Program-made: the position numbers and the translations under genes
The notes under the pieces: model-generated
Told to the model about the DNA's origin: nothing
Databases searched by the model: none
The model's input: the letters and a program-made list of their open reading frames with translations, nothing else
Shown here: positions 7,958 through 28,722 of the stretch, piece by piece
How positions within the stretch are numbered: the first letter of the stretch is position 1
How the letters are laid out: every line of letters starts with the position of its first letter
NCBI GenBank assembly: GCA_026710795.1
Contig: JAPOQK010000106.1
Location: 1-64,000 of the forward strand
Direction of reading: 5' to 3'
Source of the DNA: Candidatus Poribacteria bacterium
Lineage (GTDB): Bacteria; Poribacteria; WGA-4E; WGA-3G
DNA: 64,000 bases

Positions 7958-8725
7958 ATGAAAAAAATATTATTACTCACTATTATCTGTTTCATAGTTA
8001 TTTCTCCACAACTGATGGCACTTGATACAGACGGCTTGGTTGGTGCTTGGTTGATGGATGATAAAGGAGACACCGTAAGTGATTCTTCTGGAAATGACTT
8101 GGATGGAAATATAGCAAAAGGAAACCCAAAATGGGTTGATGGCAAATTTGGCGGAGCAATGCAATTTGGTGGTGCAGATATGGTTACTGTCGCCGATGAT
8201 GCTGCACTTGATCTCAAATCTTTCACACTCTCCGCGTGGATAAATATACCTAAAATCTCTGGTGCATGGCAAATTATCGCTTCAAAAGAAAACCGTGGAC
8301 CAACAGGTCGAAACTACGGATTATTCGGTCATATTAATACTGGTGTAGTTCACTACTCTTTTACAACAGGGGGTTGGAAATCCTTTGATGGTAAAACTGT
8401 TATAACTAATGGCGCATGGCATCACGTTGTTGCAACTTATGAAAAACCGGATTTCAAACTTTATATTGATGGAGAAGTAGATGCACAAGTCGCTCCAAAT
8501 ACCGATCCTGACAGCCACGACAATTTTCTTTTCATTGGAGGATGCGACATCGGTAATTATTGGATGACGGGGTCAATTGACGAAGTTGTATTATATAACA
8601 AAGCTCTTGATGCGGACGACATAAACACACTCATGAATAATAGTTTCACCGATGCCCTTGACGTTCAACCGGGTGGAAAACTGGTTACAACGTGGAGCAA
8701 AATTAAACGGAATACTGCATATTAG
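7958..8725 (+). CDS. Secreted LamG-domain protein with C-terminal KLxTTWxxIK motif (copy 1)
   Basis: 255 aa. A signal peptide (about residues 1-21, ending near QLMA) is followed by one concanavalin A-like/LamG domain: DGLVGAWLMDD, DSSGNDLDGN, FTLSAWINIP, GAWHHVVATYEKPDFKLYIDG and GSIDEVVLYNKALDADDIN are all diagnostic of the LamG_3 fold, which usually binds carbohydrate or other surface ligands. The last 20 residues carry PGGKLVTTWSKIK, shared with four other exported proteins in this window. The gene is about 70% identical by eye to the next gene, indicating tandem duplication. It starts 71 bp after glgC; an AAGGA-type sequence precedes the ATG. Exported or surface role inferred; ligand unknown. 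Confidence 0.85.
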   Translation: MKKILLLTIICFIVISPQLMALDTDGLVGAWLMDDKGDTVSDSSGNDLDGNIAKGNPKWVDGKFGGAMQFGGADMVTVADDAALDLKSFTLSAWINIPKISGAWQIIASKENRGPTGRNYGLFGHINTGVVHYSFTTGGWKSFDGKTVITNGAWHHVVATYEKPDFKLYIDGEVDAQVAPNTDPDSHDNFLFIGGCDIGNYWMTGSIDEVVLYNKALDADDINTLMNNSFTDALDVQPGGKLVTTWSKIKRNTAY

Positions 8726-8801
8726 TATTCCATACCAACACTAATAACCATAAGTTAGTTTGAATGCTATGTTTATGTGCTGGTTATTTAAACTTCAATT
8801 C

Positions 8802-8822
8802 ACCGCATTTTTGTAATGCGGT
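8802..8822. terminator. Short hairpin between the two LamG genes
   Basis: ACCGCATT and AATGCGGT form an 8-bp perfect stem with a 5-nt loop rich in T. No run of T follows, so termination is uncertain; it may instead protect the 3' end of the first LamG transcript. Confidence 0.35.
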
Positions 8823-8857
8823 AGTATATGTTAACAGAATAATAAAGGAGAATATTT

Positions 8858-9628
8858 ATGAATAAATTATCACTCATTTTAATTTTGACACTACTTGCAA
8901 TTTCACCAACTTTGATGGCAGTTACCACTGATGGACTTGTTGGTGCTTGGACATTTGAAGATGGAACAGGCGATAAGGTAATGGATTCTTCCGGAAACGA
9001 TTTACATGGAGAGGTTACATTAGGTAGTCCTTCATGGGTTGACGGTAAATTTGGTAGTGCCTTGGAGTTTGGTGGATCAGATATGGTTACCGTTGCCGAT
9101 GCCGATGCACTTGACCTGACATCTTTTACTATTGCAGCATGGATCAATAGTCCGGAAACATCAGGAAGTTGGCATGTTATTGCTGCAAAAGAAGCTCGTA
9201 ACCCAACGGGTCGTAACTACGGAATCTTTGGTCATGTGAATACCGGTGTTATCCACTATTCCTTCACCGCAGGCGGTTGGAAGTCCTATGATGCACAGAC
9301 TAATGTTACTGATGGAGCATGGCACCATATCGCTGCAACCTATGCTAAACCGGATTTCAAACTCTATATAGATGGAGAAGTGGACGCTCAAGTAGCACCA
9401 AACGCAGATCCTGAAAGCAATACCAGTCCTCTATATATCGGTGGATGTGACATCGGTAACTATTGGATGACAGGTGCAATTGACGAGGTAGTTCTGTATA
9501 ACAGAGCACTTAGCATGGACGAAATCGCTGGTCTAATAGATGAGGGAATCGCATCCGTAACATCAGTAGAACCAGCTGATAAGTTGGTTACGACTTGGAG
9601 TAGAATAAAAGCAAACGCAACAAAGTAA
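8858..9628 (+). CDS. Secreted LamG-domain protein with C-terminal KLxTTWxxIK motif (copy 2)
   Basis: 256 aa, tandem paralog of the gene at 7958-8725. A signal peptide ends near residue 21 (TLMA). The LamG domain is complete: DGLVGAWTFED, FTIAAWINSP, GAWHHIAATYAKPDFKLYIDG, GAIDEVVLYNRALSMDEI. The C-terminus SVEPADKLVTTWSRIK plus six residues repeats the motif of copy 1 almost exactly, although the linker before it has diverged, so the motif is under separate constraint. AAAGGAG lies 8-9 nt ahead of the ATG. A strong hairpin follows at 9689-9725. Function presumably surface adhesion or glycan binding. Confidence 0.87.
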   Translation: MNKLSLILILTLLAISPTLMAVTTDGLVGAWTFEDGTGDKVMDSSGNDLHGEVTLGSPSWVDGKFGSALEFGGSDMVTVADADALDLTSFTIAAWINSPETSGSWHVIAAKEARNPTGRNYGIFGHVNTGVIHYSFTAGGWKSYDAQTNVTDGAWHHIAATYAKPDFKLYIDGEVDAQVAPNADPESNTSPLYIGGCDIGNYWMTGAIDEVVLYNRALSMDEIAGLIDEGIASVTSVEPADKLVTTWSRIKANATK

Positions 9629-9688
9629 CCTAATTTAGGTGCGTTCTACGTTTCTGAACATTTATTTCAGTAATACGCGAACTAACAT

Positions 9689-9725
9689 GAAGCACTCAAT
9701 ATATAACTGTTATATTGAGTGCTTC
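9689..9725. terminator. Strong hairpin after LamG copy 2
   Basis: A 15-bp perfect stem (GAAGCACTCAATATA with its complement) with a 7-nt loop. No T-tract follows directly, so it is either a weak intrinsic terminator or an mRNA 3'-end stabiliser for the LamG transcript. Confidence 0.5.
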
Positions 9726-9794
9726 TCATAAACAGTATATAACCCAAAATTACACTACATTTCTGCTCATATTGAAGGAAGGCATACACTTGTT

Positions 9795-10070
9795 ATGGCT
9801 GAATTAAGACAGCAGCTTCTTGTCTTACACTTACACACTCCAGATCTAAATAGCAATGTCGTTGCATGGGCAATGTATGATGGTACAGGTAAAAATCGCT
9901 ACACTACAGGTGATAGTGAAACACCACCCTATAATTCTGTAATTGAAGCAATGATAGATGGTTGGCGGGTAATACAGTTTCCACAACAATTCCCTGCTTA
10001 TCCTGACATGGAGTATTACACTTCATATCTAAGATTTGAATACATCTTAGAGAAGTTGGAGGAAATCTAA
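9795..10070 (+). CDS. 91-aa protein translationally coupled to a PhyH dioxygenase
   Basis: 91 aa, no recognised domain and no signal peptide. The first 20 residues (AELRQQLLVLHLHTPD) are followed by WAMYDGTGKNRYTTG and a C-terminal block GWRVIQFPQQFPAYPDMEYY and an acidic helix. Its stop codon overlaps the ATG of the dioxygenase (TAATG), so the two proteins are almost certainly made together. This suggests a partner, small subunit or substrate-handling factor of the dioxygenase; function is inferred from position only. The gene starts about 70 bp after the strong hairpin, so it belongs to a new transcript. Confidence 0.7.
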   Translation: MAELRQQLLVLHLHTPDLNSNVVAWAMYDGTGKNRYTTGDSETPPYNSVIEAMIDGWRVIQFPQQFPAYPDMEYYTSYLRFEYILEKLEEI

Positions 10071-10888
10071 TGATTGATAAACAACATTTCCTAACTACTG
10101 AACAGATGGCGAATTTCGTAGCCGATGGTTACCTTCGCTTTGACGACTTTATCCCCGATGAATTAAATAAAGCTGCACATGAAGAAATGGCTTCAGGTGT
10201 ATCGGTTCGAGGCGGTGGTGGTACTGTTTTAGACGACGTATGGCAGGACGATTCTGCTGTAGGAAAGGTTTTTCGTCTCCCAAAGGTACAAGGAATTATC
10301 CACAGTCTTGTAGGTGAAGCACCTTTGTTTGACCATCATGCTGTTCACATTGTACGACCACAGAGTGAACATGGACAGATTTGGCACGCGGATGCGATCA
10401 TTGATGTTCGGATGCATTTTGACATCCAATTCTTCTATTTTTCACATGACACTCCTCGTGAAATGGGGGGTACAATGATTTTGCCGGGGAGTCACTTTAG
10501 ACGTGTGTGTGAAACAGACGTTGCACGCTATCAAAACTTCCTTGGACAACACCCAATAGTTTGTAATGCTGGGACGCTTGTTGTCGTTCACCATGGCATG
10601 TGGCACTGTGCACAACCGAATTTAACTGAAGATACCCGTTACATGTATAAACTACGACTTAACCCGACTGTACGTCAAATGAAACTTTGGAATACTGATG
10701 ATGTTGGTTCTGTTGGTGTCGGTGGAATTCTAAGTCGTAACCATAGATGGTATGGTAATGATGTACGGCTTGAAATAGTTAACCGAATTAAACTATGGCG
10801 TTTCCTGAGTGGAGATGAATCGTTTGATGTCGGTTATTGGTTATCTCGTCTGGAAAATATGCCTGAGAATATATCTAATGTTGCATAG
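10070..10888 (+). CDS. Phytanoyl-CoA dioxygenase (PhyH) family protein, canonical iron site
   Basis: 272 aa Fe(II)/2-oxoglutarate oxygenase. The iron triad is intact: H106-A-D108 in IWHADAIID and the distal H179 in HHGMWHCAQPN; R190 in DTRYMYKLRL is the likely 2-oxoglutarate anchor. GGTMILPGSHFRR is the family's conserved turn. This contrasts with the paralog at 190-1053, which lacks the aspartate. It is coupled by a one-base overlap to the 91-aa gene upstream and followed by a perfect 14-bp hairpin terminator. AGGAGG-like sequence (TTGGAGGAAATC) precedes the ATG. The substrate is unknown; such enzymes are expanded in Poribacteria. Confidence 0.88.
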   Translation: MIDKQHFLTTEQMANFVADGYLRFDDFIPDELNKAAHEEMASGVSVRGGGGTVLDDVWQDDSAVGKVFRLPKVQGIIHSLVGEAPLFDHHAVHIVRPQSEHGQIWHADAIIDVRMHFDIQFFYFSHDTPREMGGTMILPGSHFRRVCETDVARYQNFLGQHPIVCNAGTLVVVHHGMWHCAQPNLTEDTRYMYKLRLNPTVRQMKLWNTDDVGSVGVGGILSRNHRWYGNDVRLEIVNRIKLWRFLSGDESFDVGYWLSRLENMPENISNVA

Positions 10889-10927
10889 TTTCTCATGCAA
10901 TGAAGTATTGATTTCTCAATAAACAAA

Positions 10928-10965
10928 ACACCCCGTGAGAATAAATATCACTTCTCACGGGGTGT
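10928..10965. terminator. Bidirectional terminator between convergent genes
   Basis: ACACCCCGTGAGAA pairs perfectly over 14 bp with TTCTCACGGGGTGT across a 10-nt loop. It lies between the dioxygenase (+) and the GspC-like gene (-). The minus-strand exit is T-rich, so termination is probably better for the minus-strand transcript. Confidence 0.75.
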
Positions 10966-10998
10966 ATCATTATATTTGCTATAAAAGTTCGTGGATGG

Positions 10999-11757
10999 CT
11001 ATCGACCTCTACCGCTTCTACGACTGAAATCACCACGTCTCATACGTTCACGTATAGCACCCTCAAATCTTCTTCGCATCTCCTGACTTCTTTCCATCAT
11101 TTCTTTTCTCATCTGTTCATTTCTCAATGCGGTTTCTTTTGCTTTCCGAAGGGCATCATTATTATTCGATGCATTTGAATTCTTGTTGTTATTGTCTGAC
11201 TCTGATCTTGATGATGCACTGCGATTTGAACCTCCAGCTTTTATAGGCTGCCATGTACCACCTTTAAGTGTGATACTCTCTCCATTTTTATCCAATATGA
11301 TCTGATTCTCCTTGATTTCCTTTACGACTGCATCACCAACCTTATCACCGACCATCGCAGTATAAAAGTTGTTTGAGCGACGTTCTTCTAAAAATGCCTT
11401 TGATATAACACCATTCTCATCTGTAGCAGTGCCAATGAAATTATAATCCGGTTCTTTATTCGGTGGTCTCCAACCGAGAGGACGAAAAAGACTATTGTCA
11501 ACTATTGCTTTGTAAAAGTCAGAATCATCCGTTGATTGAGAATCGTTTGAATTATTCTGTTCAGTTCTATTTGAGTTTTGCTGCCAGTTGCGAAAATTCC
11601 CCGTCCGCATAGAGGTTTTGCCTTCGAAATTATCCACATTCGTTGCTATCATACCCCTTCTTTGGGAATTTTGCGCTTGCAGCCGCACCCCAAATACAAG
11701 TAGTAAACCTACTGCACAACCTATAACTAAAAAGATGAGGATTTTTGAAAACTTCAC
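10999..11757 (-). CDS. Membrane-anchored GspC/PilP-like protein with Arg-rich tail
   Basis: 252 aa. A single N-terminal membrane segment (about residues 5-28) is followed by an Asn/Ser-rich linker. A compact domain at roughly residues 80-170 has the hallmarks of the homology region of type II secretion protein C / type IV pilus PilP: IVDNSLFRPLGW, then FIGTATDENGVISKAFLEE, MVGDKVGDAVVKEIKENQII and a final SITLKGG strand. The C-terminal 80 residues are low-complexity, then strongly basic (RRRFEGAIRERMRRG). No other secretion-system gene is nearby, so whether it works in secretion cannot be told. Assignment is by pattern, not by search. Confidence 0.6.
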   Translation of the reverse strand: MKFSKILIFLVIGCAVGLLLVFGVRLQAQNSQRRGMIATNVDNFEGKTSMRTGNFRNWQQNSNRTEQNNSNDSQSTDDSDFYKAIVDNSLFRPLGWRPPNKEPDYNFIGTATDENGVISKAFLEERRSNNFYTAMVGDKVGDAVVKEIKENQIILDKNGESITLKGGTWQPIKAGGSNRSASSRSESDNNNKNSNASNNNDALRKAKETALRNEQMRKEMMERSQEMRRRFEGAIRERMRRGDFSRRSGRGR

Positions 11758-11990
11758 AATTTTCTCCTTATGGTCAGTTCAAGTGAGCTATCAACAATTA
11801 ACTTTCGTGTTTATATAGAGATTAGACTAATATAGTTGAAAAAAGTTCAATTTTTCTTATTTCTCTGTGTTTCACCTATCTAATACACATAATTTTAACA
11901 CCTAAAATCTTCGTTGTCAAGTTATTGTGGCAATACACCAGGGTTATTCAGTTTTCAGAATCTTATGGTTTCCAATATTAATCCTTTCTG

Positions 11991-12181
11991 TGTAGGAACG
12001 ACCCGGTGAATCATGCAGAATACCAAACGCGTATTCTGCCAATGGCATTCATACCCGTCGAATACCATACGCGTATTCGGCGTTGATTTGGGGGAACGCC
12101 TACAGGCGTTCATACCGTTGATTTCTTGATTTCCAGGTCGCGATTAAAACACATTTATGTGGAATATAGGTCGCTCATACA
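11991..12181. repeat. Palindromic intergenic element with terminal inverted repeats (191 bp)
   Basis: The 524-bp gap between 11758 and 12281 holds no convincing gene. Inside it, TGTAGGAACGACC (11991-12003) and GGTCGCTCATACA (12169-12181) form imperfect terminal inverted repeats. The interior contains three further hairpins, including GAACGCC/GGCGTTC (12094-12111) followed by CATACCGTTGATTT, a block shared with copies at 18.8, 29.0 and 56.7 kb. Two internal hairpins are built on GAATAC/GTATTC. MITE-like; no coding capacity. Confidence 0.7.
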
Positions 12182-12281
12182 GAAGAGGCGTTAACATGTT
12201 TTCAAAATTCACCATAAATAAACCTGGAGTAATACAATCTCAGAAGTAATACTATTAAGATGTTAGATTCTAAATGTGGAT

Positions 12282-13976
12282 TTATTTTTCTTGTAGAAGT
12301 AGAATCTGATTTGCAGGAACGTCCTCAACTATCTGTATATCCCCACTAACCCAACGCACCTTAATCTTATCAACGCTGTCATGATCACCAATTCCAAAGT
12401 GGAGTTTTAATTCTCTTTGTGATAGATATCCGTCACCACTCTGGACTTCACGAATTTGATGTAAATCACCGGTGGTTACCATAACACGCGTCCCTATTGC
12501 ATCCGAGGAAGTTTGCGTAGCCTTGAGTTTGATTTGTAGCCAGTTATTCCGATTTCCACCGTCGTTTCGCAATAAACGTGGAGGCGTATTTGAGTTGGTT
12601 ACCAGAATATCAATGTCACCATCTAAATCGTAATCTGCGAAGGTTGCTCCACGACTAACGTCTTCAAGTATCATACCTGGTCCAAGAGAATTGGAAACAT
12701 CAGTAAATGTCCCATCTTTCTTGTTTAGTAATAATAGGTTTTGCTGTTCGTATGTGCCTTGTAGTCCAAGTTCTGTAAGATTATCTTGTAAATGTCCATT
12801 CGCAACAAAAATATCACCAAATCCGTCATTATCAATGTCTACAAAGGCTGTTGCCCAACCAAGATATGGATATGTGATTTTTGCTGTCTTTGTGGTAGAA
12901 GTTGCATCCGTAAAAAAGCCGTCCCCGTCGTTATGGTACAGGGTATTTGTTTGATCGGCATAATTGGTAACCGTAAGATCTAACCACCCATCGTTATTCC
13001 AATCACCAAACGCAGTACCCATGCCGTTTTCTGCGACACCGTTTTCATTGAGTGCAACACCAATCATAAAACCTACCTCTGAAAACGTCCCATCCCCCAT
13101 ATTGGTAAAGAAGAAGTTTTCTGTTGAGTCGTTTGCGATGTAGATATCAGAATGTCCATCATTGTTATAGTCTCCCCACACAACACCTAACCCTTTTCCC
13201 GTAGGATTAAAGATTCCTGCTAACTTCGTAACGTCAGTAAATGTGCCATCACCATTATTCCTATAGAGAGTATCTGTTTGTGCTTTGAAGTTATCTGGTT
13301 CACAATATGCTCGGATATCTTTCTCTTTAATTCCACACCAAGGATTCTCATCAAGATTATATTCGAGGTAGTTGACAACATAGAGATCAATATATCCATC
13401 TCTGTCATAATCAGCGAATGCACAACTTGTACTCCATCGTGGTTCAGCAACACCAGCTTTTTCTGTGACATCGGTGAAAGTTGCATCACCATTATTTTTA
13501 TAAAGACGATTTGATCCGTAGTTTGTAACGTAAATATCTAAGTTGCCGTCATTATCGTAATCACCAACTGCACATCCGTGTCCATAGCCTATGTCTCCTA
13601 CACCAGCTTTCTGTGTTACATCAGTGAATGTACCATCACCGTTGTTTTCATAAAGTCGATTGGTAGGAATTTCTTCAATAATGTCCCCTGGAAGTGGTGC
13701 TCCATTTACAAGGTATAGATCCGGATCACCATCTGCGTCATAATCAAAAAAAGCTGCACCTGATCCAAGCATTTCCATACAGTATTTTTGCCCACTCCGT
13801 CCATCTATGTGTGTCCAGATAATCCCTGCTTCCTTCGTAACATCAATATATTGAATCAGATTTGATGACACAGTAGGTAATACCAGCAGGAATAATACAA
13901 GAATCAAAATATAACCACGACATGTCAAATACATACTCGCGAGTAAATTACTATTCGTTTTCATTATTAGTCTCAT
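12282..13976 (-). CDS. Secreted FG-GAP/VCBS-repeat protein with ASPIC/UnbV domain (CRTAC1-like)
   Basis: 564 aa. After a signal peptide (hydrophobic stretch YILILVLFLLVLP) the protein is made of repeated FG-GAP units with calcium-binding D-x-D-x-D-G loops (for example DYDADGDPDLYLVN, DYDNDGNLDIYVTN, DYDRDGYIDLYVVN, DWNNDGWLDLTVTN, DIDNDGFGDIFVAN), forming an extracellular beta-propeller. The C-terminal part (LKATQTSSDAIGTRVMV to the last IKVRWVSGD segment) is the ASPIC/UnbV domain. Start ATG at 13976 or 13964; either overlaps the end of the TPR gene by 14-26 bp, so the two are coupled. Such pairs of TPR and UnbV proteins are frequent in marine PVC-group bacteria. Role: probably adhesion or secreted scaffold. 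Confidence 0.85.
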   Translation of the reverse strand: MRLIMKTNSNLLASMYLTCRGYILILVLFLLVLPTVSSNLIQYIDVTKEAGIIWTHIDGRSGQKYCMEMLGSGAAFFDYDADGDPDLYLVNGAPLPGDIIEEIPTNRLYENNGDGTFTDVTQKAGVGDIGYGHGCAVGDYDNDGNLDIYVTNYGSNRLYKNNGDATFTDVTEKAGVAEPRWSTSCAFADYDRDGYIDLYVVNYLEYNLDENPWCGIKEKDIRAYCEPDNFKAQTDTLYRNNGDGTFTDVTKLAGIFNPTGKGLGVVWGDYNNDGHSDIYIANDSTENFFFTNMGDGTFSEVGFMIGVALNENGVAENGMGTAFGDWNNDGWLDLTVTNYADQTNTLYHNDGDGFFTDATSTTKTAKITYPYLGWATAFVDIDNDGFGDIFVANGHLQDNLTELGLQGTYEQQNLLLLNKKDGTFTDVSNSLGPGMILEDVSRGATFADYDLDGDIDILVTNSNTPPRLLRNDGGNRNNWLQIKLKATQTSSDAIGTRVMVTTGDLHQIREVQSGDGYLSQRELKLHFGIGDHDSVDKIKVRWVSGDIQIVEDVPANQILLLQEK

Positions 13977-15612: not shown

Positions 15613-15694
15613 GGATATCAATCCTCTATGCATTTTTAAGAATGATGTCGTATGTTGCTTATACTAAGGAATGCATGTATGGAATAAGTTGATT

Positions 15695-16558: not shown

Positions 16559-16563
16559 CTTTC

Positions 16564-17370
16564 TTATTTGATTGCTTTCAAGTCACCCCATGTTGTGGTT
16601 AACTTACCATCTGGTTCAACAGAGGTAACTGTTGACTTGAGCCAAATGATAATCTCTGCAGCCACTGCCCCTTTCGGTTCATCACCATTTGCAGTTTGTA
16701 TGGTAGGGATCAGTCTTCCACGATCGCCATCACGTACGATAATTGGATCAGCGCGTGTTCCCGCTTCATTTTGTGCAAGTGATACCTCAACTTCCCAATC
16801 ATTTGCAAGTTGATCAATGTGGAAGGGTCGGTCAGACTGGATCGCAGGTAGACTTGGAGAAATATCTTTACCTTCATCGGTGACTATCATTGGTGTATTG
16901 TCATCCCACATGACGATACCGGGGATGTCCATCATGTTTTGAAGTCCACCTTCAGCATTACGGTTGCCCAATCCCCAGAACATATAATCCGCATGGTTGA
17001 GGATGGCATCTCCATCAGTGCTTTCAATAAACATCTCACCAATTGAACCATCTGGCATAGCATTCCCTTGTGGATAGAGGGTAGGTGGTATATCACCGTA
17101 AAGAACACAGATATCCAAGCCATTGTCGTCAGTTACATCTTCCATCCAATTGGCTAACGCATCCATATCCCCATCACTTTTGTACCATGTGTTATTGATA
17201 CCCGCGTCATTAAGCATGTCAACACATATTTGTGCTTGTTCGTCCGCTGGTGCCTTATCAATCCATTGTGTTGTTCCGGTGTAGATAACCACATCACCTG
17301 CACCAAAAGTCAACGTCAAGGGTGATGCAATTAAAGCAACAAGTGTTAATAATAAAATTGTATTTCGCAT
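16564..17370 (-). CDS. Secreted protein of unknown function with C-terminal KLxTTWxxLK motif
   Basis: 268 aa. Signal peptide about residues 1-23. The mature part begins GDVVIYTGTTQWIDKAP and contains the block GGLQNMMDIPGI, then RPFHIDQLANDWEVEVSLAQ. The strand-helix alternation with ICVLYGDIPPTLYPQGNAMP recalls a flavodoxin-like or ThuA/glutamine-amidotransferase-like fold, but no catalytic Cys-His pair is evident and I do not recognise a named family. The C-terminus, SVEPDGKLTTTWGDLKAIK, matches the terminal motif of the LamG proteins although the rest is unrelated. Its paralog lies 5 bp upstream at 17376-18200; the two are one operon with the FGE-like gene. Confidence 0.75.
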   Translation of the reverse strand: MRNTILLLTLVALIASPLTLTFGAGDVVIYTGTTQWIDKAPADEQAQICVDMLNDAGINNTWYKSDGDMDALANWMEDVTDDNGLDICVLYGDIPPTLYPQGNAMPDGSIGEMFIESTDGDAILNHADYMFWGLGNRNAEGGLQNMMDIPGIVMWDDNTPMIVTDEGKDISPSLPAIQSDRPFHIDQLANDWEVEVSLAQNEAGTRADPIIVRDGDRGRLIPTIQTANGDEPKGAVAAEIIIWLKSTVTSVEPDGKLTTTWGDLKAIK

Positions 17371-17375
17371 TAAAT

Positions 17376-18200
17376 TTACCTCCTGGTTTTAATGTTTCCC
17401 CAGAGTACAGGGAGTTTTTCTTCGGGTTCAACTGCTTGAGCACCTACAGTCTCAAGATAGTAGTTTAAAATAATCTCTGCAATGACTTCACCTTTTGGAT
17501 CATCTTGATTTGCAGTTTGATAGACTTGTATGAGTCGCGCACCTGTTTCTGTGTGTCTAATAATACATGGATCACACCGAGTGGCACCATCTGCTTTTCC
17601 GGTGTTCGTTGCAAATGCAATTTCTAATTCCCAACCGTTTGCGATTTGATCAATGTGGAAAGGACGATCACATGCATAATCCTTAAGTGTAGGTGTTAGT
17701 TTTTCGCCTTCAGGTGTAACCTTCATAGGAGTGTCATCATCCCATTGAAGAATTCCTGGGATATCCATCATATTTTGCAGTCCACCTTCAGCATTTCGGT
17801 TACCCAACCCCCAAAAAAAGTAATCAGCACTATTTGAGAAAGTATTACCTGCATCAAGGAATTCTTCTGCAATAGAACCTTCCGGTTTAGCATTGCCTAC
17901 CGGATAGATCTCTGGAGGAATATCACCGAATAGGACAATAAGATGTTGTCCTTTTTTTACGGTGTGTTTCTCAGTCCATTCAGCAAGTGCATTTGCAGGA
18001 TCATTGACTACATTACCAATTCCTTTTGCTCCTTCAATCATATCAATTAGGATATCAGCTTCTGCTTGAGCGGCTGGTTGTCCAATCCATTGAGTCGTCT
18101 GTGTATAAACAAAAACATCTACCTGTGCATCAGCTTCAGACATACAAAGTATTAACGAAGCAACGCACAAAACGCAAACAAAAATAAAAACTATCCTCAT
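17376..18200 (-). CDS. Secreted protein of unknown function, paralog with degenerate C-terminal motif
   Basis: 274 aa, paralog of 16564-17370 (shared FVYTQTTQWIGQPAA, LIVLFGDIPPEIYPVGNAKP, WGLGNRNAEGGLQNMMDIPG and DRPFHIDQIANGWELEIA). Signal peptide about residues 1-25 (ending SEADA). The terminal segment AVEPEEKLPVLWGNIKTRR keeps the V-E-P, K-L, W-G and I-K positions of the shared motif but lacks the Thr-Thr. The gene leads the operon; a promoter-like sequence lies 350 bp upstream at 18548-18576. The protein is presumably exported; function unknown. Confidence 0.72.
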   Translation of the reverse strand: MRIVFIFVCVLCVASLILCMSEADAQVDVFVYTQTTQWIGQPAAQAEADILIDMIEGAKGIGNVVNDPANALAEWTEKHTVKKGQHLIVLFGDIPPEIYPVGNAKPEGSIAEEFLDAGNTFSNSADYFFWGLGNRNAEGGLQNMMDIPGILQWDDDTPMKVTPEGEKLTPTLKDYACDRPFHIDQIANGWELEIAFATNTGKADGATRCDPCIIRHTETGARLIQVYQTANQDDPKGEVIAEIILNYYLETVGAQAVEPEEKLPVLWGNIKTRR

Positions 18201-18523: not shown

Positions 18524-18547
18524 ATATCATATTTACCCACTCATACC

Positions 18548-18576: not shown

Positions 18577-18786
18577 AATATTTTTCTCTTAGATTGTAAA
18601 GAGTAATACCTTCTTTTACTCCAGATTACATTTACCGTTGTGTCAGTTCAATCCACAACCATAGTTGTTTAGAAAGAATCACAACGTATCAGATCACTAA
18701 CACTACTTAAAATACTTATACCAATTCTAATATTTATTGTCCCATTACTGGATTCAACCATTGTTATTGATTGGAAATCTTTCTTC

Positions 18787-18865
18787 TGTAGGATCGACCC
18801 GGTGAATGCCTAAATGGCATTCATACCGTTGATTTACCGGTCGCGACCAGGAGGTCGCTCCTACA
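18787..18865. repeat. 79-bp palindromic element with 13-bp terminal inverted repeats
   Basis: TGTAGGATCGACC at the left end and GGTCGCTCCTACA at the right end pair with one mismatch. The interior hairpin GAATGCC/GGCATTC (18804-18822) is followed by CATACCGTTGATTT, as in the copy at 12.1 kb but with one compensated base pair. This is the most compact complete copy in the window. The rest of 18201-19000 is AT-rich and holds nothing else I can support beyond the small ORF and promoter-like site listed. Confidence 0.75.
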
Positions 18866-19000
18866 AGTAGTTCTCAGCAAATGGCACTTTATTTATTAGA
18901 AATGGTATTACTAAAAGAATAATAAATAAAGGAACCAAATCTCATACATCAAGACAGGTTACAGATAGTATAAAATAGAAATTGGAAGGATATCAGCTGA

Positions 19001-19969: not shown

Positions 19970-20024
19970 ATTGGTTATCTACAATCAGATGAAAGGGAAC
20001 AAATAATTGTATAAGGTTATACAA

Positions 20025-21673: not shown

Positions 21674-23018
21674 AACCTGTGGTTCCGTTGCGTTCTTCTT
21701 TATGTGCTTCCCAGTAATTTTCTATACCTTGTCGCCATGTTTGTGTCACTTCTGTCAGTTCAGCGGTGATTTCAGGATGTTCATCCTTCAAATTTGTCGT
21801 TTCACCCATATCGGTTTCAAGGTTTGCAAGGTGAACATCGTCTTCGGGTGGTGCACCTTCAACTAATCGACCATTAAGTACTAATTTCCATTTGTCTCGA
21901 CGCATTGCAGTCTGGTTTCCCATCTCCCAAAAAATATCAGTGTGCGGAGAGAATTGACCATCACATACCATCGGTATTAAGTCTTTCCCATCAAGTTCAT
22001 ATTTGGAGAGATCTCCATCAGCGGCGGATAGAAAAGTCGGAAACACATCCATTGCTGCACCCATTAGTTTTGATTGACTTAATACGTTTCCGGGAGGAAT
22101 TTCTTTAGGCCATTTCATAATCCCTGGTGAGCGGATACCACCTTCATAGAGGCTGAATTTATGTCCTTTAAGTTTGCCTGCACTTCCACCATAATATGGG
22201 TCTTGTGTACCATCTAACCAATTTCGTGTTTCGCGCGATGGTCCGTTGTCACTCTGGAAATAGGAGAAGGTATTTTCAGCAACACCAAGTCGTTCAAGTT
22301 CAGCGAAAATCTCACCAACGCTATCATCAACTGCACTTAACATTGCTGCCATAATCTGTCTGTCCCAAGGTAGATTGGGAAACCTATCAACATATTCCTG
22401 GGGTGCATGCATTGGGTAGTGTGGGGCATTGTAAGGTACATACAGGAAAAACGGCTTATTTTGCTCAACTGCATTTCGAATATATCTCACTGCATATTCA
22501 GTTATCAACTCAGTAAAGTATTCACCGTTTCTGTATATTTCCTCTCCGTTTTCCCATAGGTCATGCGTTTGGTCAAAATCGGGTCGTCCCAATGCCCAAT
22601 AAAAGATATGTGAATAAAAATCGATGCAACCCGCTAAAAATCCAAACCAATCGTCAAACCCATGATCTTCTGGACGTGAACCTTCTGCAAGTCCAAGATG
22701 CCATTTTCCGGACATTGCAGTATAATAACCGAGTTCCTTAAGTGCTGTCGCCAGTGTAGGTACGGAAGGTGGCAACCCCGTTGCTGTTCGGTGTCCTGCT
22801 AAGATAGAACGAACACCTGCATGGCACGGATACCGTCCGGTTAATAACGCAGCACGAGATGGTGAACAGACAGGTGAATTGGAGTACCAATCTGTAAAAC
22901 GGATACCTTCAGAAGCCATTCTATCCAGATGCGGTGTTCTGAAATCTGTAGCACCCATACAGGAAAGGTCACCGTAGCCTTGATCGTCTGTCAAAAAAAT
23001 AATAAAATTGGGTTGCAT
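21660..23018 (-). CDS. Formylglycine-dependent sulfatase (arylsulfatase family)
   Basis: 452 aa. The sulfatase signature C-x-P-S-R is present at C51 (VCSPSRAALLTGRYP), so the cysteine should be converted to formylglycine. Metal ligands D11 and D12 (FLTDDQGYGD) and the later SDNGPSRETRNW are intact. It hydrolyses sulfate esters, possibly of sulfated polysaccharides. No signal peptide is visible, unusual for secreted sulfatases but common in this group. No dedicated anSME or active FGE gene is nearby. First gene of a coupled cluster with the methyltransferase and the phosphoesterase. Confidence 0.9.
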   Translation of the reverse strand: MQPNFIIFLTDDQGYGDLSCMGATDFRTPHLDRMASEGIRFTDWYSNSPVCSPSRAALLTGRYPCHAGVRSILAGHRTATGLPPSVPTLATALKELGYYTAMSGKWHLGLAEGSRPEDHGFDDWFGFLAGCIDFYSHIFYWALGRPDFDQTHDLWENGEEIYRNGEYFTELITEYAVRYIRNAVEQNKPFFLYVPYNAPHYPMHAPQEYVDRFPNLPWDRQIMAAMLSAVDDSVGEIFAELERLGVAENTFSYFQSDNGPSRETRNWLDGTQDPYYGGSAGKLKGHKFSLYEGGIRSPGIMKWPKEIPPGNVLSQSKLMGAAMDVFPTFLSAADGDLSKYELDGKDLIPMVCDGQFSPHTDIFWEMGNQTAMRRDKWKLVLNGRLVEGAPPEDDVHLANLETDMGETTNLKDEHPEITAELTEVTQTWRQGIENYWEAHKEERNGTTGYVKG

Positions 23019-23081
23019 TCGGTCTCCTTGATATCTTGTAATGTTTTCTTAACTCTATTTACTGCACACTGGAGAGTGATT

Positions 23082-24620
23082 TTATTTTTTCCAAAAGCTC
23101 CGATCTAAACTCCGATATTGTATTGCTTCAGAGACGTGTACCGCATCTATACTTGGGTTCTCGTCAAGGTCTGCAATTGTGCGCGATACTTTCAAAATAC
23201 GGTCATACGCTCTTGCACTCAAACCTAACTGATTGATAGCGATACGCAACAAGTCTTGTGCCTGTGATTCAATCTTACAATATTCACGGATCTGCTTGGA
23301 TTCCATATTAGCATTAGCATGTATAGATGTTCCATCAAAACGTTGATGTTGCAAACGACGTGCAGCTTCCACACGTTTACGAACAATAGGTGACGCTTCT
23401 CCTGTCACCTCTGCTGAAAGTTCAGCATATTTCACTGCTGGTACTTCAACTTGGATATCAATCCTATCTAACAGCGGACCAGATATACGTGAAACATACG
23501 TCTGTATCTGTTTGTGTGTGCATTTACACTCTCGATTTGGATCGCTAAAGAAACCACAAGGACAAGGGTTCATCGCTGCAACTAACATGAAATTTGCAGG
23601 ATATGTGAGTGATGCAGCAGCCCTTGAAATTGTCACATGTCCATCTTCTAACGGTTGTCGCATGACTTCAAGCACGTTCCTACGAAATTCTGGAAGTTCA
23701 TCAAGAAAGAGAACACCGTTATGTGAAAGACTTACCTCTCCCGGACGAGGAACATTCCCTCCACCGATCAATCCAGCATCAGAAATCGTGTGGTGTGGTG
23801 AACGAAATGGTCGAGTTGTAACTAACGGAGTATCACTCGGTAGAACACCGATTATACTTTGAATTTTCGTAGTTTCCAAAGATTCATCCGTGGATAACTT
23901 CGGTAGGATTGAAGGAATCCGTTTAGCAATCATCGTTTTACCGGACCCAGGGGGTCCGATCATAATTATATTGTGTCCTCCCGCAGCTGCTACCTCAACT
24001 GCACGTTTCACATGTTCCTGTCCTTTAACATCAATTAAGTCAAGATATGTTTGTGTATCTTCTGAATTTACTGCATTACTTAGAGTGTATGTTTCTGGTG
24101 ATATTTCTTTTGCAGAGTTTAGAAAGGCAGCAGCATCAGTTAGACTTTCAACAGGGAAAACACTCAAGTCATCAACAATTGCTGCTTCCTTCGCATTTGC
24201 TGCTGGTAGAATCAAGTTCTTTATACCATTCTGTTTTGCTGCTATTGCGATTGGAAGTCCTCCCTGTATACTCCGAATGGTACCATCAAGAGCGAGTTCA
24301 CCCAAAACCATAGTGCTTTCAAGATTAGCTAAATCCACTTGATTCGTGGCTGCCATAACGCCGATTGCAATAGGGAGATCAAATGCAGAACCTGTTTTTC
24401 GAATATCAGCCGGAGCTAAATTGGCAGTAATTCTGCTGGGTGGAAAGTAAAACCCAGAGTTTTTTATTGCAGCTATAACCCTATCTCTGCTCTCTTTGAT
24501 AGCACTGTCCGGTAAACCGACTGTGCTGAATGCTGGTAAACCATCTGATACATCCACCTCTACCTTGACAACATAAGCATCAATACCTAACACCGCGCTA
24601 CTGAGAACAGTTGCAAGCAT
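23082..24620 (-). CDS. comM: ComM/YifB-family AAA+ helicase-like ATPase
   Basis: 512 aa. The N-terminal Lon-like fold (YVVKVEVDVSDGLPAFSTVG, NLAPADIRKTGSAFDLPIA) is followed by an Mg-chelatase-like AAA+ core: Walker A GPPGSGKTMIAKRIP, Walker B FLDELPEF, zinc-type cysteines in NPCPCGFFSDPNRECKC, and the C-terminal helix RAYDRILKVSRTIADL. ComM is a hexameric DNA helicase that promotes branch migration of recombination intermediates in natural transformation. Length and order match the family. It stands alone between the sulfatase cluster and the K+ channel. Confidence 0.92.
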   Translation of the reverse strand: MLATVLSSAVLGIDAYVVKVEVDVSDGLPAFSTVGLPDSAIKESRDRVIAAIKNSGFYFPPSRITANLAPADIRKTGSAFDLPIAIGVMAATNQVDLANLESTMVLGELALDGTIRSIQGGLPIAIAAKQNGIKNLILPAANAKEAAIVDDLSVFPVESLTDAAAFLNSAKEISPETYTLSNAVNSEDTQTYLDLIDVKGQEHVKRAVEVAAAGGHNIIMIGPPGSGKTMIAKRIPSILPKLSTDESLETTKIQSIIGVLPSDTPLVTTRPFRSPHHTISDAGLIGGGNVPRPGEVSLSHNGVLFLDELPEFRRNVLEVMRQPLEDGHVTISRAAASLTYPANFMLVAAMNPCPCGFFSDPNRECKCTHKQIQTYVSRISGPLLDRIDIQVEVPAVKYAELSAEVTGEASPIVRKRVEAARRLQHQRFDGTSIHANANMESKQIREYCKIESQAQDLLRIAINQLGLSARAYDRILKVSRTIADLDENPSIDAVHVSEAIQYRSLDRSFWKK

Positions 24621-24720
24621 TTATATTCTATCCTAGTTCTCTCCCCAGTTTCCACTCTATGAATCATATCAGAAAAGATATGACATTTTATATGTTATTA
24701 AATATAGAAAGTAAATCTTT

Positions 24721-25740
24721 TTATCGTGTATCTTCGGTGAGTTTATGAAGCAATTGCAGTTGCTTTGGATCGGATATTACGAACAATGCATCCTCAGCCT
24801 CTATTCTCCAATTTCCATCAGGATTGTAGATATATTCACCATCTTTACTTCGGATTGCGATAACAACCAATCCTGTTTCTTCTTTGATACGGGCATCTTC
24901 TATGGTAATCCCATCAAGTAAAGAATCTGGTTGTATAATAGATTCTGCAAAACGTGTTGTTTTTCTATTAACCTGCATCTTGGCAAAAAAGTCTATTAGA
25001 TGAGGTTCAAGTATGCCTGAGGCAAGTCTAATTCCACCGATATGGTCTGGTAAAACGACTTCGTCTGCACCTGCAGTCTCTAATTTTGCTAAGGAGTTAT
25101 TCTCTACTGCTTTGGAAGCGACACGTAGACTTGGATTGAGTTTTTTTGCTGAAATGACAACAAACAGGTTATCTTGGTCACGACTAAGGCATGCCACAAG
25201 ACCTTTAGCACGTTCCACACCAGCGCGTAGAAGCATATCGTCATCAGTAGCATCTCCGTGAAGGTATAATAAATTATGGGTTTCCGCGATGTGTTCTAAA
25301 CGATCCTCATCCAATTCAATACAAACGAAATGGGCATCTGCTTTCAACATCTCTTCAACTACATGTATACCAGTGTCACCGATTCCACAGACTATATAAT
25401 GATTTGATAATTTTTCTACATCTCTTGCCATTTTTCTATGTTTGAAAAAACTCAGTAATTGTCCTTCAAGTAGGTAGGTTGTTGCTAAGGTAATGCTATA
25501 GAAAAAAACACCAATACCTCCGAAGATTAAAAACAGCGTGAATACTTGTCCTGGAAAACTTATATCCATATCGTCATAGCCGACTGTAGTCACCGTTATT
25601 ACGGTCAGCCATACGGAGTCGAAAATACCCCAATCGCGATGTGGATTATCTTTTTCAAGAATTGAAAAACCGATTGTTCCTATGGTAAGAAGACCTAACA
25701 ATAGACAAACGGCAATAATAATCTTACGTTGGTAAAACAT
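24721..25740 (-). CDS. Two-TM potassium channel with RCK (TrkA-N/TrkA-C) domains
   Basis: 339 aa. Two membrane helices flank a pore loop with the K+ filter TVGYDD (residues 52-57). The cytoplasmic part starts with a Rossmann RCK domain (HYIVCGIGDTGIHVVEEML) that could bind NAD(H) or nucleotides, followed by a TrkA-C domain ending near the stop. Architecture as in MthK/KtrA-gated channels, usually tetrameric. The ATG at 25740 is preceded by a GGAGGATA sequence. No partner gene is near. Confidence 0.9.
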   Translation of the reverse strand: MFYQRKIIIAVCLLLGLLTIGTIGFSILEKDNPHRDWGIFDSVWLTVITVTTVGYDDMDISFPGQVFTLFLIFGGIGVFFYSITLATTYLLEGQLLSFFKHRKMARDVEKLSNHYIVCGIGDTGIHVVEEMLKADAHFVCIELDEDRLEHIAETHNLLYLHGDATDDDMLLRAGVERAKGLVACLSRDQDNLFVVISAKKLNPSLRVASKAVENNSLAKLETAGADEVVLPDHIGGIRLASGILEPHLIDFFAKMQVNRKTTRFAESIIQPDSLLDGITIEDARIKEETGLVVIAIRSKDGEYIYNPDGNWRIEAEDALFVISDPKQLQLLHKLTEDTR

Positions 25741-25819
25741 TATCCTCCGTTCTTATGTGTCTTACAAGAAAATATCATAGACATCGGTTAGAAATGGCAG
25801 ATCTATCAGGAATTGCTGC

Positions 25820-26212
25820 TTATTCTTCGTTTGTTGTTTCTTCTAACTCAGGTGTTCTGTTATCCTCATTTGATACATCATCTTCACGTTCTTCTTCTGG
25901 TGCTGCTAAGTCTTGTTCTGGGGAATCCTTTTGACTATTGACAGCACGGACATATCCCATTCTCAAATCATACAGAGAATTTGCCAAAAAATTTGATTCC
26001 GGTGCTGATAAGTTGCCTTTAGTTTTTTCTTCAAGCATTTCTATGGTATCAATCATTCGTTTTGCTAATCCGAGATTGATAATAACGTTGTCAGTTTCAG
26101 GGTCCTTAAATCCTTGAAGATATAGATGAGTTGTTGTAACAAGATCCGTAATAAAAGAAATAAAATCTACAGATGGGAGTTGTGTTTCCTCTTGAGTTGT
26201 GTTATCTTCCAT
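25820..26212 (-). CDS. DUF1844 protein
   Basis: 130 aa. The central segment matches DUF1844: FISFITDLVTTTHLYLQGF, then NLGLAKRMIDTIEMLEEKTK, GNLSAPESNFLANSLYDLRM. The last 40 residues are acidic and Glu-rich (EEEREDDVSNEDNRTPELEE), a frequent tail in this family. Function is unknown in the family; cytosolic. An AGGAGA-like sequence lies about 8 nt before the ATG. Confidence 0.8.
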   Translation of the reverse strand: MEDNTTQEETQLPSVDFISFITDLVTTTHLYLQGFKDPETDNVIINLGLAKRMIDTIEMLEEKTKGNLSAPESNFLANSLYDLRMGYVRAVNSQKDSPEQDLAAPEEEREDDVSNEDNRTPELEETTNEE

Positions 26213-26294
26213 TTAACTTCTCCTGATCTGACATAAATACTTCAATGAGAATGTATCGTTAGGGCATTAATATATTGTTTATGGATTAGTGATA

Positions 26295-26663
26295 TTATTC
26301 TTCAAAAATAATAATTTGTGCAAGTAGACTTCCCGCTTGATTGTTATTATTAGGATTTTCGTTCATAGCCAGAAAAATAACACCGTCTGCAGGGGCAGGA
26401 TTATCGTATCGTGACCCAACAGCGAATACGCTACTCCCGATTCTTGCAATCAACGCACCAATGTTGGTCCCTGGTAAAAGGTAGCCATCTCCACCTGGTG
26501 TTTTTGGGACACCGTCAGCACCACACCATCCCGTTCGATTTTGCAAATCCGGTGACCATGCACCCTCAGCATCAATTACGAGACGTTGACCTTTTTCAAT
26601 GCGTACATAACTCTCTTGCCAAACAGGGCTCGGACGTGCTGTCCGAATAACAGTGAATGCCAT
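26295..26663 (-). CDS. LecA (PA-IL)-like calcium-dependent lectin
   Basis: 122 aa, the length of Pseudomonas aeruginosa LecA. The fold-defining features align by eye: an N-terminal beta strand, the GWCGADG turn, LLPGTNIGALIARIGS (LecA has a similar GALVMKIG), FAVGSRY, and FLAMNENPNNNNQAGSL, where LecA places its Ca2+ and galactose ligands (a D/E around residue 102 and the Asn pair at 107-108). No signal peptide is present, as in LecA itself. A galactose- or glycan-binding lectin is the natural reading. It lies between the cyclophilin lipoprotein and the DUF1844 gene on the minus strand. Confidence 0.72.
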   Translation of the reverse strand: MAFTVIRTARPSPVWQESYVRIEKGQRLVIDAEGAWSPDLQNRTGWCGADGVPKTPGGDGYLLPGTNIGALIARIGSSVFAVGSRYDNPAPADGVIFLAMNENPNNNNQAGSLLAQIIIFEE

Positions 26664-26724
26664 TCAATTTTCCTTTCAATTTTCATATAGGACTGTAAAT
26701 ATATGAAGGAACATCCTATAACAA

Positions 26725-27366
26725 TTATTCCTCAGTGCGTTCACGTATTGTAATATCCAATATTTTATCATACTTTACAATACTATCTAATACCTCTAAA
26801 CCACTGATTACTTTACCGAGAGTTGTATAGTCTTCATCCAATGCTATTGCATCCTTACAAATAAAGAATTCATCTCCATCAGAAACAGTTTCCCCAGGGG
26901 TCTTTGCCAATAGTACGACACCTCTAACAAGCTGATGATCACTTTTTTCAATCGGTATTGTATCATTAGCAAGTTTGGAACCTGCTTGGATGAAAAGCTC
27001 CTGAACATCATGAAAATGCTCATTTCTGTAATTCGCACTGTTCGCGTTTTTGATAAAATTCTTTGATGCTAATGGGGCATCGGAGGCATAGAATTCAAAC
27101 TCTATATTACCTTTCGCAGTTTGTATAACAGCTATTGCATTCGCGGGATCTATATCACGGATAATCTTCCTCTCTGCTTCCGCAGGTTCCTCCGCAGGTT
27201 TGATAACTGTCTGTTGTGTTTCAGCCTCAGGTTGTGCAGTTTCTTCTGTAGTGGTTTCTGATGTCTCTTTGTTTTGTTGTGAACAACTGAAAAGAAAAAG
27301 CAGAGACAGACATGACAATACGATAAGTAAGATGGGATATTGCTTAACTTTCTGATGACTTAACAT
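26725..27366 (-). CDS. Cyclophilin-type PPIase-like lipoprotein, active-site arginine lost
   Basis: About 213 aa from the ATG at 27366, chosen so that the lipobox (SLLFLFSC) sits near residue 27; in-frame starts extend to 27408. A Glu/Thr/Ala-rich linker leads to a cyclophilin domain (AVIQTAKGNIEFEFYASDAP, GKVISGLEVLDSI). The catalytic F-H-R of CypA-type enzymes reads F-H-D (HFHDVQELFIQAG), and G-S-Q-F-F is G-D-E-F-F, so prolyl isomerase activity is doubtful. Its start overlaps the end of the next cyclophilin gene by 23 bp, so the two are coupled. Probably a periplasmic folding or binding factor. Confidence 0.8.
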   Translation of the reverse strand: MLSHQKVKQYPILLIVLSCLSLLFLFSCSQQNKETSETTTEETAQPEAETQQTVIKPAEEPAEAERKIIRDIDPANAIAVIQTAKGNIEFEFYASDAPLASKNFIKNANSANYRNEHFHDVQELFIQAGSKLANDTIPIEKSDHQLVRGVVLLAKTPGETVSDGDEFFICKDAIALDEDYTTLGKVISGLEVLDSIVKYDKILDITIRERTEE

Positions 27367-27913
27367 ACTTTGACTTTGCCTCCAATCGGATTTTAGTGAT
27401 GACATCACCCATTACTAAGTTATCAACGACTTCCATACCTTGTATAACGCTACCGAATGTAGTATAACCTCCATCAAGATGAGGTTGTGGTTTCAGACAA
27501 ATGTAGAACTGACTTCCCGCAGAATTCGGTCTATCTGGTCGCGCCATTGCTATAGTACCTCTTAGATGTTTCCGTTGGTTTGGATTCGTATACTCGTCAA
27601 CAATAGTCCAACCTGGACCACCATATCCATCTCCATTCGGACATCCTCCTTGAACGACACTCAAACCTGGTGTTTTCAATATCCTATGAAATATCAATCC
27701 ATCGTAGAACTTTAGGTCAATCAATTTTATGAAGTTTTCGACTGTTTTGGGGGCAGATTCTGGATAGAACTCTACAACGAATGTCCCTTTAACAGTTTTG
27801 ACGACAGCAACCTGTTCCTGTGGGGATTCCTCCCCTCCAAAAGGCAATAGTGCACAACCTGTTATGATTTGAAATATAGCAATTAATACTAATAGATATG
27901 CAAAAGTCTTCAT
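27344..27913 (-). CDS. Cyclophilin-type peptidyl-prolyl isomerase, lipoprotein
   Basis: 189 aa from the ATG at 27913, chosen because AAAGGA lies 7 nt upstream and the lipoprotein signal (LIAIFQIITGC) follows. The active-site segments are complete: DGLIFHRILK (catalytic Arg present), GTIAMARPDRPNSAGSQFYI and GGYTTFGSVIQGMEVVD. It accelerates cis-trans prolyl isomerisation in the cell envelope. It is the catalytically competent partner of the degenerate gene that overlaps its end. The LamG gene upstream ends 17 bp before. Confidence 0.88.
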   Translation of the reverse strand: MKTFAYLLVLIAIFQIITGCALLPFGGEESPQEQVAVVKTVKGTFVVEFYPESAPKTVENFIKLIDLKFYDGLIFHRILKTPGLSVVQGGCPNGDGYGGPGWTIVDEYTNPNQRKHLRGTIAMARPDRPNSAGSQFYICLKPQPHLDGGYTTFGSVIQGMEVVDNLVMGDVITKIRLEAKSKYVKSSES

Positions 27914-27930
27914 CAATTTTCCTTTGTTGT

Positions 27931-28722
27931 TCATCGTGATTTGATACGTGCCCATGTTGTCGTTAACTTGTCGTCAGTAGGAGTAACATTAGCACTCGGA
28001 TTATCCATATCCAACATCAGTTCCTCTTGGGTTAACGCATAATCATAGATCTTTATCTCATCAAGGGCACCATTGACAAATCGTTGGTTTCCACCACGAG
28101 CACCAATAAAAAGCGGTTCATTGTTAGATGTCAGCTTTCCTTTGCATTCCAATTCTTTATTGAGTTCACCATCAATATACAACTTAATTGTGGTACCATC
28201 CCAAGTGCCTGCAAGGAAGTGCCATGTTTCATCCTGTATGTTATCGCCAATATTATGTTCACGACAATTATCAGGTAAATCGAAGAATTGAAGAAGCGAG
28301 CCTCCACGATACCATGCAGCAAGCGTAAATAATCCAGCTTTCCAAGAGTTTCCTTTTTCAACACCTGTCTGAACATCTGAACCTGCTCCACCAGCGCTTG
28401 GACGCAAATTTGCCCAGAATTCAACCGTAATACCATCAACAACATGCAAACTATCGTGATCTTCAACTTCTCCCCACGATGCTCCATCTAACTCAATCGC
28501 TTTTCCAAACATACCATCAACTAATTTATGGTTGCCATTGAACTCTGCATCATTATTGTATCCTGACAAATCACTTACCACATCCCCATTTATTTCATCA
28601 AAGGATAAGTGCAGGATTAGGTCTTCAGCCGAACATATACCAGTCAGCAAGATAGTTCCGAAGATAATAATGTACATACTAAAACAAGTAATAAAACTGT
28701 ATCTTTTCGTCAAAAAGTTCAC
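27931..28722 (-). CDS. Secreted LamG-domain protein with C-terminal KLxTTWxxIK motif (third)
   Basis: 263 aa. The long N-terminal region has a signal peptide (TCFSMYIIIFGTILLTG, cleaved near CSAED). The LamG domain is recognised by LILHLSFDEINGDVVSDLSG, ITVEFWANLR, ETWHFLAGTWDGTTIKLYID and GALDEIKIYDYALTQEEL. The C-terminus reads TPTDDKLTTTWARIKSR, the same terminal motif as the tandem LamG pair at 8-9.6 kb. A promoter lies at 28830-28858. The two cyclophilin lipoprotein genes follow on the same transcript. Confidence 0.87.
   Translation of the reverse strand: MNFLTKRYSFITCFSMYIIIFGTILLTGICSAEDLILHLSFDEINGDVVSDLSGYNNDAEFNGNHKLVDGMFGKAIELDGASWGEVEDHDSLHVVDGITVEFWANLRPSAGGAGSDVQTGVEKGNSWKAGLFTLAAWYRGGSLLQFFDLPDNCREHNIGDNIQDETWHFLAGTWDGTTIKLYIDGELNKELECKGKLTSNNEPLFIGARGGNQRFVNGALDEIKIYDYALTQEELMLDMDNPSANVTPTDDKLTTTWARIKSR

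Follow-up and report, generated by a model that had tools for sequence, protein, structure and literature searches.

A short C-terminal tag on exported proteins of Poribacteria is a candidate sorting signal

Positions 1 to 64,000 of contig JAPOQK010000106.1 from a Candidatus Poribacteria genome (assembly GCA_026710795.1), the whole stretch being called the window here, encode five exported proteins that end in nearly the same short segment, the tag. Three of them are LamG (Laminin_G_3) proteins. On the forward strand, the first (7958..8725, 255 amino acids [aa]; Pfam PF13385, E 2.3e-27) closes with the tag VQPGGKLVTTWSKIK at 8657..8713, followed by RNTAY, and the second (8858..9628, 256 aa; PF13385, E 9.3e-29), 66% identical to the first, closes with VEPADKLVTTWSRIK at 9560..9616, followed by ANATK; against a 19-position profile of the tag, they score E 3.9e-7 and 7.5e-8, and their cores, from lysine to lysine, span 8678-8707 and 9581-9610. 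The third lies on the reverse strand (27931..28722; PF13385, E 2e-24), with the tag VTPTDDKLTTTWARIK at 27934..27990 (profile E 1.2e-6; core 27940-27969) followed by SR. The remaining two, also on the reverse strand, are paralogs with 51% identity: a protein of 268 aa (16564..17370), for which no Pfam or NCBIfam family was found above cut-off, ends in VEPDGKLTTTWGDLK at 16573..16626 (profile E 2.0e-8; core 16576-16605) and AIK, and its 274-aa relative (17376..18200) in VEPEEKLPVLWGNIK at 17382..17435 (profile E 1.1e-6; core 17388-17417) and TRR.

The ends of all five fit V-x-P-x-x(-x)-K-L-x-x-x-W-[GSA]-x-[LI]-K, the extra residue ahead of the lysine occurring only in the 27931-28722 tag, and two to five residues follow the final lysine of the motif (5, 5, 3, 3 and 2 in coordinate order). 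A preliminary description of the window had reported these proteins, a V/T-x-P-like turn ahead of the motif and a few residues behind it; the proteins lie at the coordinates it gave and end as it quoted them, and the turn takes the form of a V-x-P element in every one. Two motif patterns run over the 64-kb window revealed no further frame with the motif near its end. The GTG start listed for the 27931-28722 protein is probably too early, and an internal ATG, giving a 248-aa protein with a predicted signal peptide, is the likelier start. The predicted fold of the 16564..17370 protein shows a weak resemblance to ThuA-like proteins (model against 4jqs by Foldseek, E 4.5e-5, TMq 0.45; mean pLDDT, the predicted local distance difference test score, 71).

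The tag proved much more numerous than first noted: the genome that holds the window, 4.70 Mb in 114 contigs, has 124 copies as against the five window proteins, counted at E<=10 with the profile, which was built from 45 tails, and 117 of them reach E<=0.01. It is not a product of chance, since the genome holds 57 matches to a degenerate DNA pattern encoding TTWxx[IL]K and 3 to its reversal, and 87 matches to a K-L-x3-W-x2-[IL]-K pattern and 4 to its reversal. Nearly all copies (122 of 124) end one to eight residues ahead of the stop codon, most commonly three (54 copies) and then two (28). Among these 122 terminal tags, the tryptophan is invariant, the lysine following it is present in 121 and replaced by arginine in one, the leading lysine occurs in 113 and a valine at -10 in 109; the residue ahead of the last hydrophobic position is unconstrained, and the net charge after the last lysine is zero or positive in 113. 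The relative entropy of 121 tails totals 38 bits over 15 columns, and the tail consensus reads V-[ED]-[PA]-x-[GDN]-K-L-[TA]-T-T-W-G-x-[LI]-K plus one to eight residues. Only two of the 124 copies are internal, at C8:26100 and C68:16075, 91 and 96 residues ahead of the stop, and both stand directly ahead of another C-terminal sorting domain, the NYPNPFNPETWIPY domain of the type IX secretion system (T9SS). Under a stricter pattern, which the two degenerate internal copies do not match, the tag sits at the terminus in 267 cases and internally in 0 across all collected loci. In the two exceptional proteins (L162 at C8:26100 and L169 at C68:16075), a slightly degenerate tag is followed by a T9SS type A-like domain (KQFTTWGKVKTTVVYQNYPNPFNPETW in L169); from their sequences, they look as if one signal was added behind the other. 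Some very short frames of 12 to 91 aa also end in the tag (C51:32037, C94:4567, C15:19321, C27:17008 and C114:66784) and are perhaps frameshifted or broken carriers.

In a set of 40 LamG carriers, two from the window and 38 from named loci, the mean pairwise identity is 0.64 in the tag, 0.29 in the LamG domain, 0.25 in the linker and 0.21 in the signal peptide, the tag being the most conserved stretch of 15 residues. By codon position, the nucleotide identity within the tag is 0.67, 0.78 and 0.42 (80 of 107 tags used), and the DNA beyond the stop is 0.28 identical; as the third positions vary and the DNA beyond the stop is unrelated, selection acts on the peptide and not on a shared DNA element. 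The tag lies outside the confidently modelled domain in both AlphaFold2 models: in the LamG protein at 7958..8725, the core blocks mostly exceed a pLDDT of 90 (lowest 74) and the last 25 residues score 53-69, and in the 16564..17370 protein the last 18 residues score 34-38. A low-confidence helix covers the tag in the former model and none in the latter, and the hydrophobic moment of the tag, compared with shuffled versions, is 0.293 against 0.304 for a helix, 0.566 against 0.302 at 160 degrees and 0.122 against 0.271 at 180 degrees; given that the weak modelled helix and the strand-like moment disagree, we assign neither a helix nor a strand.

Two unrelated families had originally been seen to share the motif, and this now extends to 22 sequence clusters. 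These come from single-linkage clustering of 118 carriers of at least 150 aa with the signal peptide and tag removed, and have 63, 14, 7, 4 and 4 members, followed by nine pairs and eight singletons; six of the 124 matches were left out as their assigned protein was shorter than 150 aa, one of them (C34:51684) being a full 260-aa protein. The 63-member cluster includes the three window LamG proteins, and 62 of its members coincide with a LamG match in the genome; the other 55 carriers are spread over 21 clusters. With one member each of 20 non-LamG clusters run against Pfam at E<=0.01, the families named were PD40, CBM9, CBM_4_9, NPCBM, DUF1349, DUF4960, LDL-receptor class B, lamin tail and beta-helix, with F5/8 type C at its cut-off; eight of the 20 received no family, and a few others had only matches below the cut-off. 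LamG matches with no tag nearby are rare (4 of 69), one lying at a contig end and three in frames of 644, 714 and 1382 aa. Most carriers are small, 111 of the 118 having 200-350 aa and the largest up to 1123 aa. A check for cytosolic carriers relied on a home-made hydrophobicity rule with a lenient choice of start, the same for carriers and background, and called a signal peptide in 117 of 118 tagged frames and in 50 of 148 neighbouring open reading frames (ORFs; Fisher p 1.2e-33). The background consisted of ORFs of at least 200 aa from the window and the stretches around tags, and the carriers were drawn from 119 tagged open frames of at least 200 aa, 118 of which passed the filters for complete, non-overlapping ORFs. 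The single carrier with no signal peptide is C68/L169, one of the two with an extra type IX domain. A simple pattern for the lipobox cysteine matched 0 of the 118 carriers, and we rejected the idea that they are lipoproteins.

A phylum-wide profile check matched the tag in all 84 Poribacteria genomes examined (21 genera; E<=0.01). The copy number per genome lies between 27 and at least 108, copies having been scored up to 108 and higher counts thus being lower bounds. Scanning named genomes (84,980 species) with the motif alone gave at least 114 stretches; among the 80 titled matches listed, 76 are Poribacteria, and all 90 in-frame motifs in these 80 titled loci end at most 12 residues from the stop. 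The other four belong to a Pseudomonadota bin (L217, with two tagged proteins), Thermoprotei (L273), Deltaproteobacteria (L242) and Clostridia (L264); the tag stands just ahead of the stop in the first three, and the Clostridia locus has no in-frame motif. The three tagged cases could reflect wrong binning, transfer, a related lineage or a tag of wider range. For two of these bins, relatives of 27-36% identity to some of the proteins exist among the collected loci, which does not discriminate between the possibilities.

The tag also occurs three times in IMG/VR viral contigs, each time closing a LamG-like protein, with one residue left before the stop. Two of the proteins, both from phages and with a hydrophobic N-terminus, are 308 aa (L355:12770-13696) and 307 aa (L357:5498-6421) long, and the third is truncated where its contig ends (L356:6457-6486); the proteins end in KLTTTWGEVKK, and their genes lie close behind a DnaB-like helicase gene. 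By PHROGs, L355 is T4-like, with a DNA polymerase, UvsX, a DnaB-like helicase and a clamp loader, and L357 also looks T4-like, judged from the resemblance of its ORFs. No relative was found among INPHARED phages.

C-terminal sorting tags are known as a kind, and the Poribacteria tag, as far as its sequence tells, is not a member of any of the tested families. Like the signals of the PEP-CTERM/exosortase, LPxTG/sortase and GlyGly-CTERM/rhombosortase systems, it is a short C-terminal homology on unrelated exported proteins. Those signals have a transmembrane helix between the motif and the end, whereas none is visible by eye in the terminal tails of the carriers, as the preliminary description had also observed. 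The tag was matched neither by NCBIfam (five window proteins, 22 carriers and one tail) nor by Pfam (five window and 20 further proteins), and no paper describing it was found in the literature searched, mostly outside subscription journals and bioRxiv preprints; the sole hit to its letters was a paper on canine filariosis. Machinery profiles were run on the 84 phylum genomes and 14 control genomes. The sortase profile PF04203 matched 0 of the 84 genomes and 3 of the 14 controls, and the exosortase profile PF09721, whose positive controls match, found 3 of the 84, the window's genome not among them; with the tag in all 84, we rejected both enzymes as its readers, and the earlier view that the tag is neither LPxTG nor PEP-CTERM is upheld. 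The type A sorting domain of the T9SS (TIGR04183, Por_Secre_tail) resembles the tag in being C-terminal and in standing on Sec-exported proteins of many families. Poribacteria are a diderm lineage, and the window's genome holds type A domains and SprA-, PorU- and PorV-like proteins beside the tag. The type A domain has about 70-100 residues, however, whereas the tag has about 15-20 and is not a beta-sandwich, and the one to eight residues that follow its conserved lysine also set it apart.

A PorV-family match above the curated cut-off occurs in all 84 genomes, and the 15 PorV-family matches in the window's genome are more than would be expected from Bacteroidota. PorU-like C25 proteases are likewise found in 84 of 84 at E<=1e-3, seven candidates per genome having been scored; the one on C34 (L360:3733-11318, 2158 aa) reaches E 3.3e-80 with Peptidase_C25 and 414.5 bits with NF033707, whose cut-off is 420, and a PorV2-like gene lies directly behind it. 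SprA_N is matched in 78 of the 84 genomes at E<=1e-3 and in none of the 14 controls, and C54 encodes a SprA/Sov-like protein of 2157 aa (L342:11688-18161; TIGR04189 E 5e-42, 143 bits, cut-off 200). An exact pattern finds 23 proteins with a YPNPFNP domain in the window's genome and 0 when reversed, and the one such domain that was run against TIGR04183 passes with 38.7 vs. 23 bits; type A domains are undercounted at 23, since the exact pattern misses that of the PorU-like protein on C102 (TIGR04183, 31.3 bits). The part of Kamke et al. (2014; PMC3909097) drawn on here reports type IX sorting domains in Poribacteria but no success in finding structural genes for the Por system. The SprA-, PorU- and PorV-like matches across the phylum, being sequence similarities, bear directly on that gap.

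The idea that the tag is no more than a conserved LamG terminus, or a chance likeness, is hardly worth entertaining: although 63 of the 118 carriers in the clustering belong with LamG, the other 55 fall into 21 different clusters, 4 of 69 LamG matches have no tag nearby, and the reversed patterns gave 3 and 4 matches against 57 and 87. Very improbable, too, is a signal that would mark proteins for degradation or quality control by a protease of the envelope; the extreme C-terminal position and the hydrophobic and aromatic residues would suit such a role, but the tag is carried by more than 100 exported proteins of one genome, is conserved phylum-wide and appears even on viral contigs, and its last residues vary (R, K, Y and Q being the first among them). 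Tail proteases want a defined C-terminal end. An assembly motif, by which the tag would bind other tagged proteins or a common scaffold through strand or helix addition and so build a surface matrix, gains some appeal from the conserved L, W and L/I, the flanking lysines and the flexible tail, all suited to docking, and from the binding-type domains of many carriers (LamG, CBM and propeller); we nevertheless consider it improbable, as the carriers differ greatly in fold and size (up to 1123 aa) and the tail lies outside its own domain in both models. On the other hand, a selected peptide motif that is fixed at the C-terminus of carriers with predicted signal peptides, in many families and in all sampled genomes of the phylum, argues for a C-terminal sorting signal, and in our judgement no other ordinary explanation fits as well; that it acts as some kind of signal, be it for sorting, targeting or processing, is highly probable. 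The novel sorting signal proposed in the preliminary description is thus supported, having survived checks on internal positions, cytosolic carriers and restriction to a single family.

Less confidence attaches to the machinery that would read such a signal. Our favoured explanation, in which the tag serves the phylum as a short, portable sorting signal at the C-terminus and is most likely read by type IX-like machinery, has in its entirety an even chance of being right, and the part concerning the T9SS-like reader, taken alone, an even chance at best. It builds on the presence of the machinery, the absence of sortase and rarity of exosortase, and the published shortening of T9SS signals: according to the sections of PMC11969387 used here, the short C-terminal domains (CTDs) of Prevotella intermedia have 43-55 residues with the motifs B, D and E, D being G-x-Y, and the C-terminal 22 residues of Hbp35 are cited there as absolutely required for the secretion of green fluorescent protein. 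These domains show that T9SS signals can be shortened, the tag being shorter still and devoid of G-x-Y. Moreover, several shuttles of the Flavobacterium johnsoniae T9SS handle more than one type of signal, as stated in the part of PMC12618676 considered. Several observations weigh against a T9SS-like reader. Mutagenesis cited in the same sections of PMC11969387 found that a mutation of motif B in RgpB stopped secretion; as motif B can be required in a CTD, too, a signal as short as the tag cannot be taken for granted. TIGR04183 matched none of the five window proteins (E<=1), 22 tagged proteins (E<=0.1) and one isolated tail, no other T9SS or C-terminal sorting model matched the tag in the 22 proteins, and hhalign gave a probability of 0.2% for the tag and the lineage's own type A domain, a value that bears out, for the sequence, the early statement that the tag is not the type IX beta-sandwich, the type IX domains and SprA-, PorU- and PorV-like proteins of the genome notwithstanding, and on which we rejected the tag as a piece of the type A domain. 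SprA_N exceeds its Pfam cut-off in just 30 of the 84 genomes. The curated NCBIfam cut-offs are not reached by the SprA-like and PorU-like proteins, no PorU match having passed in the genome search; the PorU model also matches 2 of the 14 controls, and the PorV model 1 of the 14, below its cut-off. A sequence search of the PDB with the SprA-like protein retrieved no solved SprA, the sole match (E 0.45) being taken as chance, and GldM (TIGR03517) was found in 0 of 84 genomes and in none of the 14 controls either, which leaves that search with no positive control and makes it uninformative. Finally, the tag and the machinery are both near-universal in the phylum, so their co-occurrence cannot link them, and the tag and type A domain on the same two proteins would be redundant if one route served both. 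The tag may instead be read, as a sorting or anchoring signal, by a separate machinery of the phylum independent of the T9SS, with its own receptor, protease, transpeptidase or surface-layer docking site, which we regard as a possible but doubtful solution. It would accord with a tag unlike any known C-terminal signal among the models searched and far shorter than the type A domain (about 15-20 vs. about 90 residues), with the excess of 124 tags over 23 YPNPFNP domains (an undercount by exact pattern), with the two proteins that bear both signals and with the lack of sortase and scarcity of exosortase; yet no candidate gene was found, and a T9SS-like set, of a system that in F. johnsoniae copes with several signal types (PMC12618676, in the part considered), is already present. 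In a bolder and rather unlikely form, the lineage would have its own dedicated route, with a 15-residue C-terminal code on some 100 mostly small proteins per genome and a receptor unlike the known sortase, exosortase and T9SS readers, and T4-like phages would carry the code so that the host delivers their LamG protein.

Under the favoured explanation of a sorting signal with a type IX-like reader, the carriers would cross the inner membrane by means of their predicted signal peptide, after which a receptor in the envelope may bind the flexible tail and either route the carriers to or across the outer membrane or fix them there; most of these carriers are small, and they include LamG, carbohydrate-binding, beta-propeller and ThuA-like proteins. 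In the weakest step of the scheme, reading might fall to a SprA-like translocon together with PorU-like sortases and one of the roughly 15 shuttles of the PorV family; the tag would then serve as a minimal signal, used side by side with the classical type A domain that other proteins carry.

Elsewhere in the window, an intergenic sequence with a short tandem unit (translating as NITVFVGRSEQSDLRHL…) at 29296-29583 is similar to one at L342:18309-18836, and 36555-41766 encodes two large tandem leucine-rich-repeat proteins of 845 and 897 aa, whose N-termini, read by eye, are hydrophobic and then GC, lipoprotein-like.

Overall, no other C-terminal signal seen here in this uncultured phylum, known from marine sponges, would be as common as the tag. 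It may also mark phages of the Poribacteria lineage and is a possible host marker. If it is a sorting signal, it would name in one sweep proteins, among them LamG proteins, carbohydrate binders and propellers, by which the symbionts may meet their sponge host.

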